Assembly: GCF_000381365.1 (NCBI RefSeq)
Contig: NZ_KB905466.1
Span: 246,744 to 310,743, forward strand
DNA length: 64,000 bases
Direction of reading: 5' to 3'
Source: Bacteroides salyersiae WAL 10018 = DSM 18765 = JCM 12988
GTDB lineage: Bacteria; Bacteroidota; Bacteroidia; Bacteroidales; Bacteroidaceae
Shown piece by piece: positions 1,739 through 46,048 of this stretch; position 1 is the stretch's first letter; each line of letters starts with the position of its first letter. The notes under the pieces are model-generated. The model ran no database searches. It had not been told where the DNA came from and saw nothing but the letters and a program-made list of their open reading frames with translations. Both the position numbers and the translations under genes were made by a program.

Positions 1739-2410
1739 TTATCTTTTTACTTTCGGCAGAATCAGCTCCAACAAACGGTTGACCGATTCTTCAAGTGAAA
1801 GTCTGGAAGTATCCAACTCCAATGCCGGATGTTCCGGAGCTTCGAACGGAGCCGAAATACCGGTAAAATTCTTAATTTCTCCTTTACGGGCTTTGGCATA
1901 CAGGCCTTTCACATCACGTTTCTCGCATTCTGCAAGCGGAGTACTGACATAGATTTCCAGAAAATCATCTTGCCCGATAATATTTGCAGCCATTTCACGA
2001 ATATCGTTATTAGGACTGATAAATGCGGCAATCGTTATGATACCACTATCGATAAACAGTTTTGAGACCTCTGCTATGCGACGGATATTTTCTACTCGGT
2101 CAGCTTCGGAGAACCCTAAATTATTATTAATTCCACTACGGATATTATCACCGTCAAGAATACGGCATAACAATCCGCGTTTATGCAATTCGCGTTCCAA
2201 TGCAATGGCAATCGTACTCTTTCCGGAGCCGCTTAATCCGGTAAACCATATCATCACACTGTGTTGCTTCAATAAATCTTCTTTGTCTTCCCGCGCTAAC
2301 ATGCGGTCGAATATAGGGTAAATATTGTTTTTAGTTGAAAGTTGAGAGTTGAAAGTTGAAAGTTCTTCGTTCCCATCATTCTTTTCTATTTCATTATTAT
2401 TTTGCTCCAT
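1739..2410 (-). CDS. cysC: Adenylylsulfate kinase CysC
   Basis: CysC phosphorylates adenosine phosphosulfate at the 3' position to make PAPS. The P-loop GLSGSGKST lies near residues 57-65, followed by the DGDNIR motif near residue 87 and the GLYAKARKGEIKNFTG segment typical of APS kinases. The family domain starts around residue 29 (NNIYPIFDRML), so the first 28 residues are an extension. Residues 16-26 (ELSTFNSQLST) are a literal translation of the GTTGAAAG/GTTGAGAG repeat at 2334-2364. The start overlaps the end of the upstream four-helix-bundle gene by 14 bases, so translation may be coupled. An ATG at residue 37 would cut into the conserved domain start and is less likely. Confidence 0.93.
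   Translation of the reverse strand: MEQNNNEIEKNDGNEELSTFNSQLSTKNNIYPIFDRMLAREDKEDLLKQHSVMIWFTGLSGSGKSTIAIALERELHKRGLLCRILDGDNIRSGINNNLGFSEADRVENIRRIAEVSKLFIDSGIITIAAFISPNNDIREMAANIIGQDDFLEIYVSTPLAECEKRDVKGLYAKARKGEIKNFTGISAPFEAPEHPALELDTSRLSLEESVNRLLELILPKVKR
2334..2364. repeat. Left arm of four-helix-bundle cassette 1
   Basis: The plus strand reads four 7-base units of the form GTTGAAA/GTTGAGA. Together with the opposite-orientation arm at 2774-2834 it forms inverted repeats around the four-helix-bundle gene. This arm lies within the first codons of cysC and is translated there. Confidence 0.85.
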
Positions 2411-2759
2411 ATAGGTTATTTTTAGTCGTTTTTACAATACTGGCTGTCAGTTTAATCAATTCACTACAATTTTCATTCATCGATTCATATTCCGTTTCCG
2501 ATATATAATCTGTTTCTTTTAACAACATCAGCCAATATTCTGTTTCATTGGCTTCTTTTAAAGCTATATTGACTTTATTTATGAAATCTGCAACAGATTG
2601 TGCATGTTCTGCTTCTTTCAACAAAGCACCAATGGCAGTACCACTACGTAACATCTGTTTCGATAATACATATTCATTTCTTTCACACAGCAACTTATAA
2701 AGTCTCACTACACGAATAGCAAAAACAAAAGCTTTCTCCCTAACTATACTCTTCCCCAT
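2397..2759 (-). CDS. Four-helix-bundle protein (23S rRNA intervening-sequence protein family)
   Basis: This 120-residue protein belongs to the small four-helix-bundle family first seen in 23S rRNA intervening sequences (PF05635/TIGR02436). The diagnostic segments are SKQMLRSGTAIGALLKEAEH, ADFINKVNIALKEANET and EYWLMLL. The molecular function is not known for stand-alone copies. I chose the ATG at 2759 (MGKSIVREKAFVFAIRVV) because it matches usual family N-termini; an in-frame TTG at 2786, within the flanking repeat and preceded by a purine-rich GGAGGA, would add nine residues. The gene interrupts the cys operon between the permease and cysC, is flanked by inverted repeat arms and has no evident link to sulfur metabolism. 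A paralogue at 41804 sits in the same setting. Confidence 0.9.
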   Translation of the reverse strand: MGKSIVREKAFVFAIRVVRLYKLLCERNEYVLSKQMLRSGTAIGALLKEAEHAQSVADFINKVNIALKEANETEYWLMLLKETDYISETEYESMNENCSELIKLTASIVKTTKNNLYGAK

Positions 2760-2773
2760 TTCTTTGTTCTCAT

Positions 2774-2834
2774 TTTCAACTTTCAACTCCCTATCTCCTC
2801 CAAACTTTCAACTTTCAACTCTCAACTTTCAACT
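2774..2834. repeat. Right arm of four-helix-bundle cassette 1
   Basis: The plus strand reads CAACTTT/CAACTCT units with a 7-base period, the reverse complement of the arm at 2334-2364. It begins directly at the stop codon of the permease gene (2835-2837) and runs into the upstream region of the four-helix-bundle gene, with a short interruption at 2790-2810. Confidence 0.85.
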
Positions 2835-4391
2835 CTAAAAGGGCCAAATTAGGGGTATCAGAAATACAGATATAAGGAAAGTTATGATATTTAGCGGCAA
2901 ACCTATACGAACAAAATCCGTAAATTTATAGTTGCCGATACCTTGCACGATCAGATTTGTCTGATAGCCGATAGGAGTTGAAAAGCTGGCAGAAGCCGCC
3001 ATACAGATAACCACAAAGAATGGTGTCGGATCGACTCCCAACTGTTGGGAAATAGCCAGTGCCAGCGGGAATGCCAAAGCCGCTGCCGCATTGTTTGTAA
3101 TAAGCTCTGTAAACAGATTGGTTATGATAAACAGGATAGCCAACAAAACGTGAGGACCATAATCGTTGCTCAAACTGATTATATAAGCAGCTACGCCATC
3201 GGCTACACCCGAATTCACCATCGCCTTGCTAATAGCAAAGGCACAGGCAATCGTAATCAGAATATCCCATGAAATGTATTTGGTATACTTGCGCGCAGGA
3301 AATATCTTAGTCCACGCCATTATGATAGTAGTAACCGAAACAAAGAAAAACATGTCTAATTTAATATTCGGAAACATCTCCTGCGTCACCGGCAACTCAC
3401 CCACCGTGGCACCCAAAATCATCAGAATAAGCAGAATCAAAGCAAACCAACGTTTTTTCTTTCCGGGAACAGGCTCGGTGTCTTTTCCATTAGCAAGCAG
3501 CACAAAGACCGAAGACTCTCCCCAAGTAGGAACAAATGTTTCATCAGCCATCACTACCAAAGTATCGCCTTCACGGAGCACCACCTCATTAAGATTATCA
3601 ATAATCCGTTGTCCGTTACGGGTTTTTATCTCCTTCACTTCCGCTCCATAATGACGCTGAAAATTAAACTCAGCCAAAGTTTTATTAATACCTGGAAAAC
3701 GAGCTCCCAAAACAGCCTCCACACGATGCAAATTCTCTCCTTTTTCCACCTCTTCATCAGGCACAGCGGTATCCGGACGTGCATCAGGCAAGAGCTTCTT
3801 AGAAAAAACAAAAAGATAAATAATACCCGCAATAGCAATAAAAATACCGACTTTCCCCAACTCGAACATCGTAAAACCTTCATATCCGGCTTCAAGAATC
3901 ATACCATGCACAACCAAATTGGTAGAAGTACCGATCAATGTACAGATACCTCCCAAAATAGTAACATAAGAAAGAGGAATCAAAAATTTAGTAGCCGGAA
4001 GATGAACAGCCCGTGCCCACCGTTTAATAATAGGAGCAAAAATAACAACGACCGGAGTATTGTTCAGAAAAGCAGAAATAAAAGCGATAGAAGGCAACAT
4101 TCTAAGTTGTGCCTTAAAAACAGTCGTTTTACCCTCCGGAAGCAGTTTTTTGATAACTTGCCCCAATGCTCCCGATTGGCGAACACCTTCACTTACCAAG
4201 AAAAGCATGGCAACAGTAATCATCCCTTTATTACTAAACCCTTCAAGCATCTCTTTCGGACTAAGAATGCCGGCACAAAGAAAAAGTACCACTACCGAAA
4301 AGAGTACCATGCCTGGTCGCATCTTGTCCATAATAAGAGCAATCACCATTCCCAATAGCGATAGTAGTACAAATACAATTTCAAATGTCAT
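2835..4391 (-). CDS. SLC13/DASS-type anion permease with RCK_C-like insert, probable sulfate transporter
   Basis: This 518-residue inner-membrane protein has the layout of the CitT/ArsB-like divalent anion:sodium symporter family: a hydrophobic N-terminal half, a soluble insert, then a hydrophobic C-terminal half. The conserved motifs ITNLFTELITNNAAAALAFP near residue 425 and GTSTNLVVHG near residue 153 match the sodium/anion binding hairpins of the family. Residues about 220-295 form one TrkA-C (RCK_C)-like domain (RFPGINKTLAEFNF, then REGDTLVVMADE). Its place between cysQ and cysC suggests the substrate is sulfate; that is inference from context. The gene lies 16 bases downstream of cysQ. 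Confidence 0.9.
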   Translation of the reverse strand: MTFEIVFVLLSLLGMVIALIMDKMRPGMVLFSVVVLFLCAGILSPKEMLEGFSNKGMITVAMLFLVSEGVRQSGALGQVIKKLLPEGKTTVFKAQLRMLPSIAFISAFLNNTPVVVIFAPIIKRWARAVHLPATKFLIPLSYVTILGGICTLIGTSTNLVVHGMILEAGYEGFTMFELGKVGIFIAIAGIIYLFVFSKKLLPDARPDTAVPDEEVEKGENLHRVEAVLGARFPGINKTLAEFNFQRHYGAEVKEIKTRNGQRIIDNLNEVVLREGDTLVVMADETFVPTWGESSVFVLLANGKDTEPVPGKKKRWFALILLILMILGATVGELPVTQEMFPNIKLDMFFFVSVTTIIMAWTKIFPARKYTKYISWDILITIACAFAISKAMVNSGVADGVAAYIISLSNDYGPHVLLAILFIITNLFTELITNNAAAALAFPLALAISQQLGVDPTPFFVVICMAASASFSTPIGYQTNLIVQGIGNYKFTDFVRIGLPLNIITFLISVFLIPLIWPF

Positions 4392-22400: not shown

Positions 22401-23501
22401 ATGAATAACACATTCCCAACAGAAGGAAATTTATCCGGTCTAAACCGAGAAGATTTTCAAAAGGATATAAATGATAAGAAAACAGACTTATTTATCCTGA
22501 AAAACAAGAAAGGAATGGAAGTTGCCGTAACAAATTACGGTTGCGCCATTCTCTCTATAATGGTTCCCGACAAAAACGGAAAATATGCCAATGTCATTCT
22601 GGGACACGACAGCATAGACCATGTAATAAACAGTCCCGAACCTTTCTTAAGCACCACTATCGGCCGATACGGAAACCGAATTGCCAAAGGGAAATTCACT
22701 CTCTATGGCGAAGAACACTCGTTAACCATCAATAATGGCCCGAATTCTCTCCACGGAGGTCCTACCGGATTTCATGCACGTGTCTGGGATGCCGATCAAG
22801 TCGATGAAAGCACAATCATTTTCAATTACGTATCGGCTGACGGAGAAGAAGGATTCCCAGGTAATCTGGAAGTAGAAATGACATACCGACTCGAAGAAGA
22901 GGAAAATGCACTGGTAATAGAATATCGTGCCACTACCGACAAAGCTACTGTTGTGAACCTTACCAACCACGGTTTCTTCAATCTGGCAGGAATTGCCAAT
23001 CCTACTCCGACCATAGAAAACAACATCGTCACTATCAACGCGGATTTTTATACCCCGATAGACGAAGTTTCCATCCCTACAGGAGAAGTCTCCAAAGTAG
23101 AAGGAACACCTATGGACTTCCGTACCCCTCATACAGTGGGGGAACGTATCAATAATTCATTCCAGCAACTCGTATTCGGAGCCGGATATGACCATTGCTA
23201 TGTTTTGAACAAAGCAGAAATCGGTTCACTTGATTTGGCAGCTACCTGTACTGATCCGGTAAGCGGACGTATTATGGAAGTGTATACTACAGAAAACGGT
23301 GTACAGCTCTATACCGGAAACTGGCTGAATGGATTCGAAGGCGCACACGGAGCCACGTTCCCGGCACGCAGTGCGATCTGTTTTGAAGCACAATGCTTCC
23401 CCGATACGCCCAATAAAGCCCATTTCCCATCGGCAGTATTGCTCCCGGGAGATGAATATCAACAGATTACGATTTACAAATTCGGAACGGTCAAGAGTTG
23501 A
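22401..23501 (+). CDS. galM: Aldose 1-epimerase (galactose mutarotase)
   Basis: GalM interconverts the anomers of galactose and related sugars before phosphorylation. The 366-residue protein has the family motifs TIGRYGNRIAKGKF (about 90), NNGPNSLHGGPTGFH (about 113, with the substrate His), NLTNHGFFNLAG (about 187, catalytic His) and a C-terminal region with ICFEAQCFPDTPNK (catalytic Glu). There is no signal peptide, so it is cytoplasmic, unlike the lipoprotein homologue at 26463. The last codons and stop (AAG AGT TGA) are part of the GTTGAAAG-type repeat that follows. It heads a mutarotase-permease-galactokinase operon. Confidence 0.93.
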   Translation: MNNTFPTEGNLSGLNREDFQKDINDKKTDLFILKNKKGMEVAVTNYGCAILSIMVPDKNGKYANVILGHDSIDHVINSPEPFLSTTIGRYGNRIAKGKFTLYGEEHSLTINNGPNSLHGGPTGFHARVWDADQVDESTIIFNYVSADGEEGFPGNLEVEMTYRLEEEENALVIEYRATTDKATVVNLTNHGFFNLAGIANPTPTIENNIVTINADFYTPIDEVSIPTGEVSKVEGTPMDFRTPHTVGERINNSFQQLVFGAGYDHCYVLNKAEIGSLDLAATCTDPVSGRIMEVYTTENGVQLYTGNWLNGFEGAHGATFPARSAICFEAQCFPDTPNKAHFPSAVLLPGDEYQQITIYKFGTVKS

Positions 23502-23582
23502 AAGTTGAGAGTTGAGAGTTGAAAGTTACCATACGGCATAGACAGCGCAGCCTAATTTTCAACTTTCAACTCTCAACTCTCT
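23495..23582. repeat. Inverted-arm repeat element, GTTGAAAG type, with core
   Basis: Left arm 23495-23527 (GTTGAAA/GTTGAGA units), core 23528-23555, right arm 23556-23582 (TCAACTT/TCAACTC units). The arms can pair into a long hairpin. The core contains ACAGCGCAGCC, also present in the core of the element at 42747. It fills the galM to permease gap and supplies the galM stop codon. Confidence 0.85.
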
Positions 23583-33980: not shown

Positions 33981-34160
33981 CTAAGCAGTTTAGTAGTTAG
34001 TTAAGTAGTTAAGTAGTCAAGTAGTTAAGTAGTCAAGTAGTCAAGTAGTCAAGTAGTCAAGTAGTTAAGTAGTTAAGTAGTTAAGTAGTTAAGTAGAAAT
34101 GACTTGCTGATGTGTTTCTCTTGACTATCTACTACTTGACTACTTGACTACTTAACTACT
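33978..34160. repeat. Inverted-arm repeat element, TTAAGTAG type, with core
   Basis: Left arm 33978-34096 consists of about fourteen TTAAGTAG/TCAAGTAG units (8-base period). Core 34097-34122 contains AATGACTTGC and TGATGTGTTTCTCTT. Right arm 34123-34160 is the inverse (CTACTTGA/CTACTTAA). The core matches that of the element at 45853. The rest of the gap to tkt (34161-34405) is AT-rich and carries the tkt promoter. Confidence 0.85.
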
Positions 34161-38438: not shown

Positions 38439-38573
38439 TCAAAAAAGATGTAGCATCCTTTCCAAAAAGACGTAACATCCTCTCCAAAAAGATGTAACGT
38501 CTTTCAAAAAAACATATAACGTCTTTAAGAAAAAGATTTAGCAGGCTTTAGAAAAAGATGCTAAGTCTTTTTT
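38439..38573. repeat. Tandem array of six 21-23-base dyad units
   Basis: Units begin at 38439, 38462, 38484, 38505, 38527 and 38550. The type unit is AAAAAGATGTAACGTCTTT, an A-run, a dyad GATG-TAA-CATC-like centre and a T-run. Units differ by several substitutions, often keeping the dyad. The array starts 14 bases past the GH28 stop and ends in a T-run, so the last unit could also terminate transcription. Confidence 0.8.
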
Positions 38574-39678: not shown

Positions 39679-40761
39679 ATGGCAGAAGAAGTTGTATTAA
39701 TGAAAGGTAACGAAGCCATCGCTCACGCAGCCATCCGTTGCGGTGCCGACGGATACTTCGGTTACCCTATTACTCCGCAATCGGAGGTATTGGAAACGCT
39801 GGCTGACCTGAAACCATGGGAAACTACCGGTATGGTAGTGCTTCAGGCAGAAAGTGAAGTAGCAGCTATCAACATGGTATATGGTGGAGCCGGAAGTGGC
39901 AAGATGGTACTGACCTCCTCTTCAAGTCCCGGCGTCAGCCTGAAACAAGAGGGTATCTCCTATCTGGCCGGTGCCGAACTTCCCTGTTTGATTGTAAATG
40001 TGATGCGCGGCGGCCCGGGATTAGGAACCATCCAACCCAGTCAGGCAGATTATTTCCAGACAGTAAAAGGCGGCGGACACGGTGACTATAAACTGATCGC
40101 ACTCGCTCCGGCTTCCGTACAGGAAATGGCTGATTTCGTCGGACTTGCCTTTGAACTTGCCTTCAAATATCGTAATCCGGCTATCATCCTTGCCGACGGT
40201 GTTATCGGACAGATGATGGAAAAAGTAGTGCTACCGCCTATGAAACCCCGCCGTACCGACGCGGAAGTAATCGCACAGTGCCCGTGGGCCAGTACAGGTA
40301 AAACCAAAGACCGCAAGCCTAATATCATTACATCACTCGAACTCCGTCCGGAAGAAATGGAAAAGAACAACATCCGTTTCCAGGCCAAGTATCGTGTAAT
40401 CGAAGAAAATGAAGTGCGTTTCGAGGAAATCGATTGTGAAAATGCAGAATACCTGATCGTAGCGTTCGGTTCAATGGCGCGTATCGGACAAAAGGCAATG
40501 GAACTGGCACGTGAAGAAGGTATCAAGGTAGGTATGCTTCGCCCCATCACGTTATGGCCTTTCCCCACAAAAGCCATTGCAGCATATGCCGGAAAAGTGA
40601 AAGGCATGCTTGTTACCGAGTTGAATGCCGGACAGATGATTGAAGATGTACGCCTTGCCGTAAATGGGAAGGTAAAAGTAGAACATTTCGGCCGTCTCGG
40701 TGGTATTGTTCCCGATCCTGACGAGATAGTGACTGCTCTTAAAGAGAAAATAATGCAATAA
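39679..40761 (+). CDS. vorB: 2-oxoacid:ferredoxin oxidoreductase, alpha subunit (VorB/KorA-like)
   Basis: This 360-residue subunit contains the pyrimidine-binding and transketolase-C-like domains of the pyruvate-ferredoxin oxidoreductase superfamily. The start VLMKGNEAIAHAAIRCGADG and FGYPITPQSEVLE (about 28-41) are typical, as is TSSSSPGVSLKQEGISYLAG (about 78-97). The set of four subunits with separate delta, alpha, beta and gamma genes matches VOR/KOR enzymes that oxidise 2-oxoglutarate or branched 2-oxoacids with CoA. Which acid is preferred cannot be read from sequence. Confidence 0.92.
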   Translation: MAEEVVLMKGNEAIAHAAIRCGADGYFGYPITPQSEVLETLADLKPWETTGMVVLQAESEVAAINMVYGGAGSGKMVLTSSSSPGVSLKQEGISYLAGAELPCLIVNVMRGGPGLGTIQPSQADYFQTVKGGGHGDYKLIALAPASVQEMADFVGLAFELAFKYRNPAIILADGVIGQMMEKVVLPPMKPRRTDAEVIAQCPWASTGKTKDRKPNIITSLELRPEEMEKNNIRFQAKYRVIEENEVRFEEIDCENAEYLIVAFGSMARIGQKAMELAREEGIKVGMLRPITLWPFPTKAIAAYAGKVKGMLVTELNAGQMIEDVRLAVNGKVKVEHFGRLGGIVPDPDEIVTALKEKIMQ

Positions 40762-41016: not shown

Positions 41017-41778
41017 ATGACTAAAGAAGAAATAATCAAACCCGAGAATCTGGTTTATAAAAAACCGACTCTGATGAACGCCAATGCCATGCACTACTGC
41101 CCGGGTTGCAGTCACGGCGTGGTACATAAACTCATTGCCGAAGTCATCGAAGAGATGGGAATGGAAGATAAAGCCGTAGGTATCTCTCCGGTAGGCTGCG
41201 CCGTTTTTATCTACAACTATCTTGATATCGACTGGCAGGAAGCTGCCCACGGACGTGCCCCTGCACTGGCCACCGCCATCAAACGCCTGTGGCCGGATCG
41301 CTTGGTATTTACTTATCAAGGTGACGGTGATTTGGCTTGTATCGGTACTGCCGAAACCATCCATGCACTGAACCGTGGCGAAAACATTACCATTATCTTT
41401 ATAAACAACGCCATTTACGGTATGACCGGCGGACAGATGGCTCCTACTACCCTTGTCGGCATGAAAACAGCTACTTGTCCTTACGGACGCGATGTGAATC
41501 TCCACGGTTATCCGCTAAAGATTACCGAAATAGCTGCCCAACTGGAAGGAACGGCATACGTCACCCGCCAATCCGTACAATCGGTTCCGGCTATCCGTAA
41601 AGCCAAGAAAGCCATCCGTAAAGCATTCGAAAATTCAATGAACGGCAAAGGTTCCAATCTGGTAGAAATCGTATCGACTTGTAGTTCCGGCTGGAAGATG
41701 ACACCCGAAAAGGCCAATAAATGGATGGAAGAACACATGTTTCCATTCTATCCATTAGGTGATTTGAAAGATAAATAA
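41017..41778 (+). CDS. 2-oxoacid:ferredoxin oxidoreductase, beta (TPP-binding) subunit
   Basis: This 253-residue subunit binds thiamine diphosphate. The opening segment MHYCPGCSHGVVHKLIAE carries the conserved CPGC. The cofactor motif is YQGDGDLACIGTAE (about 98-111) followed by NNAIYGMTGGQMAPTT (about 130-145), as in KorB/VorA. A good ribosome-binding sequence (AAGGAGAA) precedes the ATG. In the same operon a four-helix-bundle cassette separates it from the gamma subunit. Confidence 0.94.
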   Translation: MTKEEIIKPENLVYKKPTLMNANAMHYCPGCSHGVVHKLIAEVIEEMGMEDKAVGISPVGCAVFIYNYLDIDWQEAAHGRAPALATAIKRLWPDRLVFTYQGDGDLACIGTAETIHALNRGENITIIFINNAIYGMTGGQMAPTTLVGMKTATCPYGRDVNLHGYPLKITEIAAQLEGTAYVTRQSVQSVPAIRKAKKAIRKAFENSMNGKGSNLVEIVSTCSSGWKMTPEKANKWMEEHMFPFYPLGDLKDK

Positions 41779-41780
41779 TG

Positions 41781-41812
41781 ACTCAATATGCCAATGTGCC
41801 GATATGCCAATG
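41781..41812. repeat. Left arm of four-helix-bundle cassette 2
   Basis: CAATATGC/CAATGTGC/CGATATGC/CAATG units with an 8-base period. It starts two bases past the stop of the beta subunit gene and includes the start codons of the four-helix-bundle gene. The inverse arm is at 42159-42212. Confidence 0.8.
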
Positions 41813-42157
41813 AAGACAGGAAATGTAGTTTTGGACAAAAGTTTTGCATTTGCATTATCAATTATAAGCTATTGCGAAACTCTGGAACAAAACAAAAAAT
41901 TCGTAATTTCCAATCAGCTTCTAAAAAGCGGTACATCCATTGGTGCTAATATCAATGAGGCACAGAACAGTGAAAGTAAGGCAGATTTTATTCATAAATT
42001 AAAGATAGCTGCAAAAGAAGCGGAAGAAACCAGATATTGGTTATTACTTTGTGAGGAAGCAGTTAACTATCCTTACGAATCAAATTTGCTAAACGATCTG
42101 GGAGACATATTGAGATTACTCAATAGCATTATAAATTCAGCCAAGCAGCAAATGTAA
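41804..42157 (+). CDS. Four-helix-bundle protein (23S rRNA intervening-sequence protein family)
   Basis: This 117-residue protein is a paralogue of the one at 2397-2759. Shared segments are SNQLLKSGTSIGANINEAQ, KADFIHKLKIAAKEAEET and RYWLLLCEE. The ATG at 41804 and a second ATG at 41810 (MKTGNVVLDKSFAF) both lie in the left repeat arm; the second fits the family N-terminus slightly better. It interrupts an oxidoreductase operon between beta and gamma subunit genes, in the operon's direction, and is bounded by inverted 8-base-period arms. Its function is unknown. Confidence 0.9.
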   Translation: MPMKTGNVVLDKSFAFALSIISYCETLEQNKKFVISNQLLKSGTSIGANINEAQNSESKADFIHKLKIAAKEAEETRYWLLLCEEAVNYPYESNLLNDLGDILRLLNSIINSAKQQM

Positions 42158-42158
42158 C

Positions 42159-42212
42159 CGACAATTGGCACATTGGCATATTGGCACATTATCACATTAT
42201 TACATTATTAAC
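42159..42212. repeat. Right arm of four-helix-bundle cassette 2
   Basis: TTGGCACA/TTGGCATA/TTGGCACA/TTATCACA/TTATTACA/TTATTAAC units with an 8-base period, drifting in sequence toward the distal end. It is the inverse of the arm at 41781-41812 and ends exactly at the start codon of the gamma subunit gene. Confidence 0.85.
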
Positions 42213-42767
42213 ATGAAAGAAGAAATCATTATAGCAGGCTTCGGTGGACAGGGTGTACTGTCTATGGGCAAGATTTTAGCATACTCAGGATTGATGGAAG
42301 GTAAAGAGGTTACCTGGATGCCGGCTTACGGACCAGAGCAACGTGGAGGTACGGCCAATGTTACCGTTATCGTAAGCGATGAAAAAATATCTTCACCCAT
42401 CCTCAGTAAGTACGACACCGCCATCATCTTAAATCAGCCGTCACTCGAAAAGTTTGAAAGCCGCATTAAACCCGGAGGCATACTTATCTATGACGGATAT
42501 GGAATTATCAACCCACCCACGCGCAAGGATATCAAAGTATATCGTATCGATGCGATGGATGCAGCCAATGAAATGAAAAATGCCAAAGCATTCAACATGA
42601 TTGTGTTGGGTGGATTATTAAAACTCCGCCCTATCGTAACATTGGAAAATGTCATCAAAGGCTTAAAAAAGACACTTCCCGAACGCCATCACCACTTGAT
42701 ACCGATGAACGAAGAGGCCATCAAAAAAGGGATGGAACTGATAAAAGAGTTGAAAATTGAAAGTTGA
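42213..42767 (+). CDS. 2-oxoacid:ferredoxin oxidoreductase, gamma subunit
   Basis: This 184-residue subunit completes the 2-oxoacid:ferredoxin oxidoreductase. The start MKEEIIIAGFGGQGVLSMGK is the family signature, followed by the conserved PAYGPEQRGGTANVTVIVSD (about 41-60). I chose the ATG at 42213 because an upstream in-frame extension only translates the repeat arm. The last six residues (ELKIES) and the TGA stop are encoded by the GTTGAAAG-type repeat that begins at 42747. Confidence 0.93.
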   Translation: MKEEIIIAGFGGQGVLSMGKILAYSGLMEGKEVTWMPAYGPEQRGGTANVTVIVSDEKISSPILSKYDTAIILNQPSLEKFESRIKPGGILIYDGYGIINPPTRKDIKVYRIDAMDAANEMKNAKAFNMIVLGGLLKLRPIVTLENVIKGLKKTLPERHHHLIPMNEEAIKKGMELIKELKIES

Positions 42768-42923
42768 AAGTTGAAAGCTTATTCAGTTGAAAGTTGAAAA
42801 TTTGGAAGAAATAGAGAGTTGAAAGCTTATTCAGTTGAAAGTTGAGAGTTAAAAGTTAAAAGTTACTATGCAGCATCACAGCGCAGCCAACTTTCAACTT
42901 TCAACTTTCAACTTTCAACTTTT
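42747..42923. repeat. Inverted-arm repeat element, GTTGAAAG type, with core
   Basis: Long left arm 42747-42864 with an internal duplication (GTTGAAAGCTTATTCA occurs at about 42771 and again at about 42819), core 42865-42888, right arm 42888-42923 (TCAACTT units). The core shares ACAGCGCAGCC and the flanking GCAT with the core at 23528. The arm supplies the C-terminal codons and stop of the upstream gene. Confidence 0.85.
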
Positions 42924-42929
42924 TAGTAC

Positions 42930-45862: not shown

Positions 45863-46048
45863 AGAGTAGTTTAGTAGTAAGTAGTTAAGTAGTAAGTAGT
45901 TAAGTAGTAAGTAGTTAAGTAGTAAGTAGTAAGTAGTTAAGTAGTAAGTAGTAAGTAGTAAGTAGTTAAGTAGTAGTAAGTAGTTAAGTAGTAAAGTAGT
46001 AAGTAGTTAAGTAGTAAGTAGGAATGACTTGCGTGATGTGTTTCTCTT
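45853..46048. repeat. TTAAGTAG-type repeat arm with core, right arm missing
   Basis: About 165 bases of TTAAGTAG/TAAGTAG units, then the core at 46022-46048 with AATGACTTGC, an extra G and TGATGTGTTTCTCTT, matching the core at 34097. No inverted right arm follows, so the element appears truncated. It supplies the stop codon of the upstream gene. Confidence 0.85.

Follow-up and report, generated by a model that had tools for sequence, protein, structure and literature searches.

The stretch of DNA analysed (the window, 64,000 nt of Bacteroides salyersiae) includes an operon for a 2-oxoacid oxidoreductase, and between its beta and gamma subunit genes lies a cassette that occupies positions 41774–42209. 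The cassette is based upon a gene of the PF05635/TIGR02436 family, read in the direction of the operon and placed between inverted arms of short-period repeats. A second cassette of the same kind lies elsewhere in the window, together with gene-less hairpins. The features are itemized in Table 1.

Table 1. Genes, arms and hairpins of the window, numbered from its first nucleotide
Feature	Position	Strand	Remarks
2-Oxoacid oxidoreductase alpha (VorB-like) subunit gene	39679–40761	+	Family searches
2-Oxoacid oxidoreductase beta (TPP-binding) subunit gene	41017–41778	+	Family searches
5′ arm, short-period repeats, 8-bp unit, sense GCCAATRT-like	41774–41812	+	Overlaps beta stop codon (41776–41778)
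PF05635/TIGR02436 four-helix-bundle (23S rRNA IVP) gene	41804–42157	+	117 aa; family searches
3′ arm, ATTGGCAY octads grading into ATTATYAC	42164–42209	+	Ends 3 nt before gamma ATG (42213)
2-Oxoacid oxidoreductase gamma subunit gene	42213–42767	+	Family searches
Gene-less hairpin, AGTTGAA arms	42744–42924		Core TATGCAGCATCACAGCGCAGCC at 42867–42888; arm search
Gene-less hairpin, AGTTGAA arms, related core	23494–23581		Arm search
Gene-less hairpin, TAGTTAAG octad arms, different core	33998–34160		Arm search
First cassette, arm of AGTTGAA heptads (7 bp)	2328–2364		Arm search
First cassette, paralogous PF05635 gene	2397–2759	-	Profile match
First cassette, second arm	2803–2839		Arm search

The 117-aa protein matches PF05635 with E = 4.3e-23 (82 bits, curated cut-off 33.8) in the Pfam search and TIGR02436 with E = 7.4e-28 (96.9 bits, curated cut-off 24) in the NCBIfam search. 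PF05635 is the only Pfam family found in it, and NCBIfam adds to TIGR02436 no more than weak hypothetical-protein models. Neither Pfam nor NCBIfam assigned the protein a domain of a transposase, nuclease or polymerase, which counts against reading the cassette as an element. The sole solved relative by sequence at E ≤ 0.01 is PDB 2rld, solved with five chains. An S23p-family protein from Xanthomonas is reported as a pentamer, and proteins of the intervening sequence (IVS) family are said to have no known function, in the available part of the Coxiella study (PMC4990558).

The arms form two overlapping inverted pairs. The longer (41774–41812 with 42171–42209) extends over 39 nt with 79% complementarity, and the shorter (41775–41803 with 42164–42192) over 29 nt with 86%. 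The shuffle p value of the arm score is 0.005, the lowest attainable with 200 shuffles. A 14-base pattern of the 3′ arm has five matches in the window (one of them by construction), all lying within the two arms, where 0.49 are expected, and five matches were attained in none of 100 shuffles. It is confirmed that the arms of this cassette are not chance. A scan of the whole window with Rfam gave no match.

Five PF05635 genes were found in the source genome (G000), and all are surrounded by inverted arms, each with p = 0.005. The arm units differ, being TAAGTAG-like, AGTTGAA, TTATGAT-like, ATTGGCAY and of ATTTACGATT type; the last (L005) is weakly periodic. The first cassette of the window is adjoined by what we take to be an SLC13-like permease gene and cysC/cysD/cysN-like genes, and the four sites other than beta/gamma, this one included, are presumably adk/obgE, serA/DUF1015, kdgK/eda and SLC13-like permease/cysC; all these neighbours are named by sequence recognition, without a family search for those of the first cassette. 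No reverse transcriptase was recognised by eye among the neighbours of the cassettes in this genome, again without a family search. The earlier note, which was made from the letters of the window alone, had described a four-helix-bundle gene running with the oxidoreductase operon and sharing three segments with a paralogue, inverted arms of 8-base period, and unlike arm units in the two cassettes. Each part of that description holds: the protein contains SGTSIGA, KADFI and YWLLL, and the ATTGGCAY octads of the beta–gamma cassette differ from the 7-bp AGTTGAA unit of the first.

Comparison of occupied with empty sites, proposed in the same note, ties the arms to the gene at this location. Three beta–gamma loci with the gene score 36–55 for arms while 29 without it score at most 18, so that arms accompany the gene in 3/3 cases and occur without it in 0/29. 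Thirty gamma-gene loci (29 from the genus and one from the order) comprise one cassette, 28 spacers of 20–66 nt and one insert of 223 nt. This insert, in the spacer of L047, lacks the gene and was rejected as an armed element, with an arm score of just 18. Genomes G440 and G474 also have a cassette at the beta–gamma site, both with arms of the ATTGGCAY type. The adk–obgE site could be read at 26 of 30 loci, the other four being left out for want of adk within the stretch. All four loci with the gene score at least 30 there, and none of the 22 without it reaches that value. Several of the gene-less adk–obgE spacers, 74–120 nt in length, were seen by eye to hold short degenerate hairpins.

Some positions are shared among genomes: one is common to 13, and the adk–obgE cassette is present in nine. 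When DNA of 158 genomes of the genus was searched, four candidates being scored in each, no second site proved to hold a near-identical cassette, and recent transposition of the cassette is rejected on this ground. The best of the other cassettes are 69–70% identical to the beta–gamma cassette and lie at the same site. At the beta–gamma site the spacers are too diverged to align, and neither a target duplication nor a clean junction could be made out; this too counts against an element.

The association of gene and arms is found well beyond these sites. A scan of the genus gave 138 non-identical genes, reduced to 130 full PF05635 loci by removal of five at contig edges and three partial genes. 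Arms are present at p ≤ 0.01 in 124 of these, and the arm score is at least 30 in 120, against 3/303 neighbouring control open reading frames (ORFs). Mispaired flanks reach the same score in 28/400 cases, a rate that is raised because units recur. The best arm period among the 120 loci is 7 in 94, 8 in 21 and another value in five. A multi-phylum sample was restricted to the best 80 loci and is therefore biased towards typical proteins; four at edges were dropped, leaving 76. Arms are present at p ≤ 0.01 in 67 of these. Sixty-two score at least 30, with a period of 7 in 61, compared with 0/30 control ORFs. According to record titles, the armed loci among the best 80 come from Bacteroidota, Clostridia, Myxococcales, Cloacimonadota, Desulfohalobiaceae, Sulfurovum and Sulfuricurvum, and further from Acidobacteria, Deferribacteres, Victivallales and Richelia (Cyanobacteria); many are metagenome bins. 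Nine multi-phylum loci lack passing arms: L365, L367 (Crocosphaera), L394, L397, L400 (Campylobacterales), L405 (Kiritimatiellaeota), L413, L414 and L422. An initial sample from genus, order and phylum, which includes the first genus loci and from which six of 97 hits were dropped, had arms in 65/91.

Arms were also found at all eight PF05635 loci examined on plasmids (25 records have a relative, 20 were listed and eight chosen for diversity). At one of these, L139, the arms are present and the gene is open in part only. A phage origin was considered and rejected: two phage records have a PF05635 relative (L144 and L145) and neither has arms. Matches to PF05635 occur in 91/158 genomes of the genus and 157/198 of the phylum, and the genes adjoin restriction, methylase, cas1/cas2 and metabolic genes alike. 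At L139–L143, from other phyla, they lie beside or inside runs of restriction-modification, helicase/methylase and cas2/cas1 genes. The arms had been suggested to be a required part and not chance. The genus, multi-phylum and plasmid counts support this suggestion, although ‘required’ is an inference from association. The gene-plus-arms design, recurring in many phyla, looks like a widespread and poorly recognised selfish DNA element.

The arms have a direction. An unsupervised fit to the 5′ arms of 69 widely sampled loci (61 multi-phylum loci from the best 80 and the eight plasmid loci) gave the consensus heptad A-R-T-K-R-A-N, with a fit of 25.6 against a maximum of 15.8 in eight permuted sets that kept the periodicity of each arm. 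The same ARTKRAN motif, rotated, was obtained from 34 genus sites (11.8 against a permuted maximum of 9.2), and 19 order and phylum loci gave a weaker related motif (6.4 against a null maximum of 5.1). Scored with the matrix of the wide set, which itself contains a few Bacteroides loci, the sense orientation exceeds the antisense in 29/34 genus sites; of the 34 units, 18 fall in the top 5% of heptads by fit and six in the top 1%. G outnumbers C on the 5′ arm in 89 of the 120 genus loci, and the reverse holds in 20. Neither of two heptamers from the literature was accepted as a member of the consensus. Coxiella GACAGAT is not significant, with 34% of all heptads fitting equally well or better, and TAACTGA is weak, with 7% of heptads fitting as well as its reverse complement.

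The arm unit also co-varies with the protein clade, at unrelated sites too, a relationship that the earlier note had raised as a check. Over 41 sites (L242 included, with site clusters defined by flank similarity) the rank correlation rho is 0.25, a value reached in 1/2000 permutations. Arm similarity to the nearest protein at another site is 0.52, against a null maximum of 0.40. For pairs at different sites the mean arm similarity is 0.24–0.30 where the proteins are <55% identical and 0.59 at 65–80% identity (66 pairs). It is 0.84 at ≥80%, from five pairs that all involve L242, the site of which is perhaps misjudged. Orthologous sites were compared where three or more members have arms; in 9/13 such clusters the two arms of a cassette match each other better than they match the arms of orthologues. 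The margin is wide in five (60 against 33, for example), ten points in one and no more than 1.5 points in three, and the within-cassette scores had been pre-selected at ≥30, which favours this result. The remaining 4/13 clusters, where arms match no better within than across, count against an element. The PF05635 protein is under purifying selection. The median dN/dS is 0.07, with values <0.5 in 62/62 usable pairs; these derive from 181 same-site pairs at 70–97% identity after 119 without usable dS were left out, and the median dS of 1.8 is near saturation.

Arms also occur without the gene. DNA of the beta–gamma cassette is matched in 44/158 genomes of the genus (four candidates scored in each), mostly at arm-only places and at some with the gene. 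The arm-only places that were read out are hairpins, many having a core close to CATGCGGCATNNNAGCGCAGCC. Such a core is combined with several unrelated arm units, in the window (42867–42888) and at L146–L148, L153, L154, L268 and L279. Allowing up to three mismatches, the core pattern has 24 matches in G000 against one for the reversed control; it occurs in 12/41 genomes, with counts near control beyond G000, G001 and G018. Inverted arms at p ≤ 0.01, from at least four unit families, surround 21 of the 24, and outside this genome six of the 12 core matches looked at score at least 30. The gene-less units TTAGTGA and GGGAGAN have no cognate gene in G000, which counts against an element. A TAAGTAG-type hairpin or array, followed by another shared core (AATGACTTGC then GATGTG), is seen at 34090–34130 and 46015–46040 of the window. 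A tandem repeat of a different kind, with a 22-bp unit in roughly six copies, occupies positions 38441–38570.

The region 3′ of the gamma gene has hairpins at one shared place whose units differ among relatives, with both arms matching (L036–L039, L043, L045 and L047). By inspection, the AATTGAC hairpin of G001 and the AATTGAG hairpin of G012 agree with the arms of cassettes found in the same genomes (L015 and L028); this holds for AGTTGAA in G000 too. L031 was rejected as a unit match for the gamma hairpin of its own genome, its gene being broken and without usable arms. An AATTGAG hairpin lies 3′ of gamma in G021 and G009, although neither has any PF05635 hit; such hairpins in genomes without a hit (these two and G022) count against an element. 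Since gene-less hairpins carry arms elsewhere in the genomes, the arms need no adjacent gene.

Hairpins that bear these arm units but no gene are scattered through some genomes, most frequently through those with the cognate gene, although not without exception. Copies were counted as exact 20-base matches to the unit in 158 genomes; because the matches overlap, they outnumber the arrays. A genome was classed as a carrier if the unit occurs within 400 nt of its full PF05635 loci. AGTTGAR has 82, 132, 32 and one match in its four carriers and none in 127/154 other genomes (rank test p = 4e-6), and ATTGGCAY has 89, 26 and one in three carriers and none in 142/155 others (p = 2e-8). Relatedness of the genomes is ignored in these statistics and the cassettes' own arms are counted in. 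The reversed control of ATTGGCAY is zero throughout; that of AGTTGAR is uninformative because the pattern reads identically backwards. Rich genomes without a PF05635 gene of the unit among the loci examined are G056 (90) and G045 (65) for AGTTGAR and G430 (16) for ATTGGCAY, and G456 has an AGTTGAT-type gene with no AGTTGAR match and is not classed as a carrier; all of these count against the association. L017 and L024 were tried as hidden AGTTGA-type genes in array-rich genomes and rejected.

We interpret the cassette, with confidence and doubt about equally balanced, as an IVS-like element of the intercistronic spacer, having the arms as its ends, a PF05635 protein that probably reads them, and the gene-less hairpins as satellites; recognition and mobility are inferred. 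The ends would be inverted arms of tandem heptads (octads at the beta–gamma site) and the cargo an Avd-related protein. As an oligomer, this protein may recognise its cognate heptads either as DNA or as a folded strand. That the arms are its natural recognition element is deduced from the association of gene and arms, the directional heptad and the co-variation. Together with enzymes acting in trans, the protein might promote copying or conversion of gene-bearing and gene-less hairpins; this is suggested by the concerted change of both arms and by the gene-less relatives, and no enzyme, junction or movement has been seen. Insertion would be tolerated because spacers of co-directional gene runs are used and because the arms, once transcribed, can pair in the manner of 23S rRNA IVSs, which RNase III excises.

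Pairing of the arms could alternatively be what is selected. The cassette would then be an intervening sequence at the RNA level: the arms pair in the polycistronic transcript, RNase III cuts the stem, and the four-helix message is looped out or excised with separation of the cistrons. The RNA of 41770–42215 is predicted to fold with the arms paired in a stem (z = −6.05; none of 100 shuffles as stable). Both neighbours are co-directional in 37/45 site clusters and 99/128 loci, against 296/514 background triples, and in 53/78 loci of the wide set, for which no background was computed. There is precedent in the 23S rRNA IVS of Coxiella burnetii, which the available text describes as ∼430 nt with an S23p ORF, heptamer repeats 5′ of it and a 28-bp stem, excised by RNase III (PMC4990558). 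Mismatches on the sense strand do not favour this reading. G.U and A.C number 40 and 64 in 64 loci, 30 and 31 over 41 genus sites (91 and 104 over 120 loci), and 58 and 56 in 70 loci of the wide set; with no G.U excess in the three samples, RNA covariation is not used as evidence for the arms. Moreover, RNA pairing alone leaves the 7-bp period, the directional consensus and the co-variation with the protein unexplained, and we consider it an unlikely basis for the cassette.

Improbable, too, is a resident host gene that benefits the cell and autoregulates through its own arms, which would serve as operators or in the control of translation and be copied through gene conversion, with mobility minor. 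Presence is patchy (any hit in 91/158 genomes of the genus), and similar proteins and units occur at unrelated sites among varied neighbours (restriction, methylase, cas1/cas2 and metabolic genes); on the other side stand the strong purifying selection and the positions conserved in 13 and nine genomes. A retroelement partner is likewise given little credence. Here the protein, like Avd, would act together with a reverse transcriptase from another locus, and RNA would be the intermediate in copying of the armed hairpins. Most cassettes do lie in the sense direction of both neighbours, yet no reverse transcriptase was recognised beside those of G000, where only the cassette neighbours were viewed, by eye. 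PF05635 and BPP-1 Avd are stated to be homologous by sequence and structure alignment in the accessible part of one report (PMC10053308). Least credible is that slippage-prone spacer repeats or terminators of the host are hot spots for insertion of a passenger gene unrelated to arm sequence, for although gene-less hairpins are common, including those with other units 3′ of gamma in several relatives and some in genomes without a PF05635 hit (G022, G021 and G009), arms flank most PF05635 genes of unrelated phyla and not control ORFs, the unit co-varies with protein clade, and gene-less spacers never score ≥30 (0/29 at beta–gamma and 0/22 at adk–obgE).

The interpretation as an IVS-like element can be extended, tentatively and with doubt prevailing, to a two-part selfish system across phyla. 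A catalytically empty Avd-like oligomer would specifically read ARTKRAN arrays, whose letters differ in part by clade, and recruit a host or retroelement enzyme for copying or conversion of its cassette and of the gene-less hairpins, the arms forming a rewritable address that co-evolves with the protein and alters on both sides together. The architecture, consensus heptad, co-variation and satellites make the function of IVS proteins and the spread of IVSs testable through binding and mobility. The cassette system could likewise account for one class of hairpins with short-period arms in Bacteroides spacers.

No description of the cassette architecture outside rRNA was found in searches of one open-access collection, which did not cover most subscription papers. 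In a REPtron, REP palindromes lie on both sides of a RAYT gene and further REPs are dispersed; RAYTs are Y1 transposases. The resemblance lies in a gene between inverted hairpin repeats with many gene-less copies in the same genome, and dispersed gene-less copies of the flanking arms are indeed present in genomes of the genus. The PF05635 protein, however, lacks a Y1 transposase domain, and the unit sequence varies between cassettes. MITEs and other non-autonomous elements with terminal inverted repeats are short and gene-less, with inverted ends, many copies and often a constant core. These properties are shared by the gene-less hairpins, but the cassette ends are tandem heptads of variable sequence, no transposase was found, and no target duplication could be made out in the diverged spacers. 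Diversity-generating retroelements are alike in the related fold of Avd, according to the part of the source available (PMC10053308), and unlike in that no reverse transcriptase was recognised by eye beside the cassettes of G000.

In Flavobacterium columnare a four helix bundle gene is listed with a guanylate kinase gene on one side and a nadD-like gene on the other, with no comment on repeats in the portion of the paper available (PMC5524665). The TAACTGA repeats of Beggiatoaceae, Cyanobacteria and some Bacteroidetes are, in what is accessible of their description, intergenic heptamer arrays in overlapping taxa, often near start codons, that differ in length by 7-nt steps between strains (PMC4679880). 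They are described as direct repeats, with one inverted case, unlike the arms here, and the terms ‘S23’, ‘intervening’ and ‘four helix’ are absent from the main text of that paper; their relationship to the cassette arms is a lead only.

Among published systems, the 23S rRNA intervening sequence of Coxiella comes closest. It shares the protein family, terminal inverted repeats and tandem heptamers (GACAGAT) just 5′ of the ORF, on the evidence of the available text (PMC4990558), and the beta–gamma cassette likewise has an S23p-family ORF between terminal inverted repeats. The Coxiella IVS lies inside 23S rRNA and its excision by RNase III has been shown, whereas the beta–gamma cassette is not inside 23S rRNA but between protein-coding cistrons of an mRNA. 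The Coxiella ORF is described, in the same partial source, as being in reductive evolution, in contrast to the purifying selection on the PF05635 proteins here (PMC4990558). The cassette is filed neither as a 23S rRNA IVS nor as a REPtron, because it lacks a defining feature of each. By analogy, the element would work most like an IVS with REPtron-like satellites.
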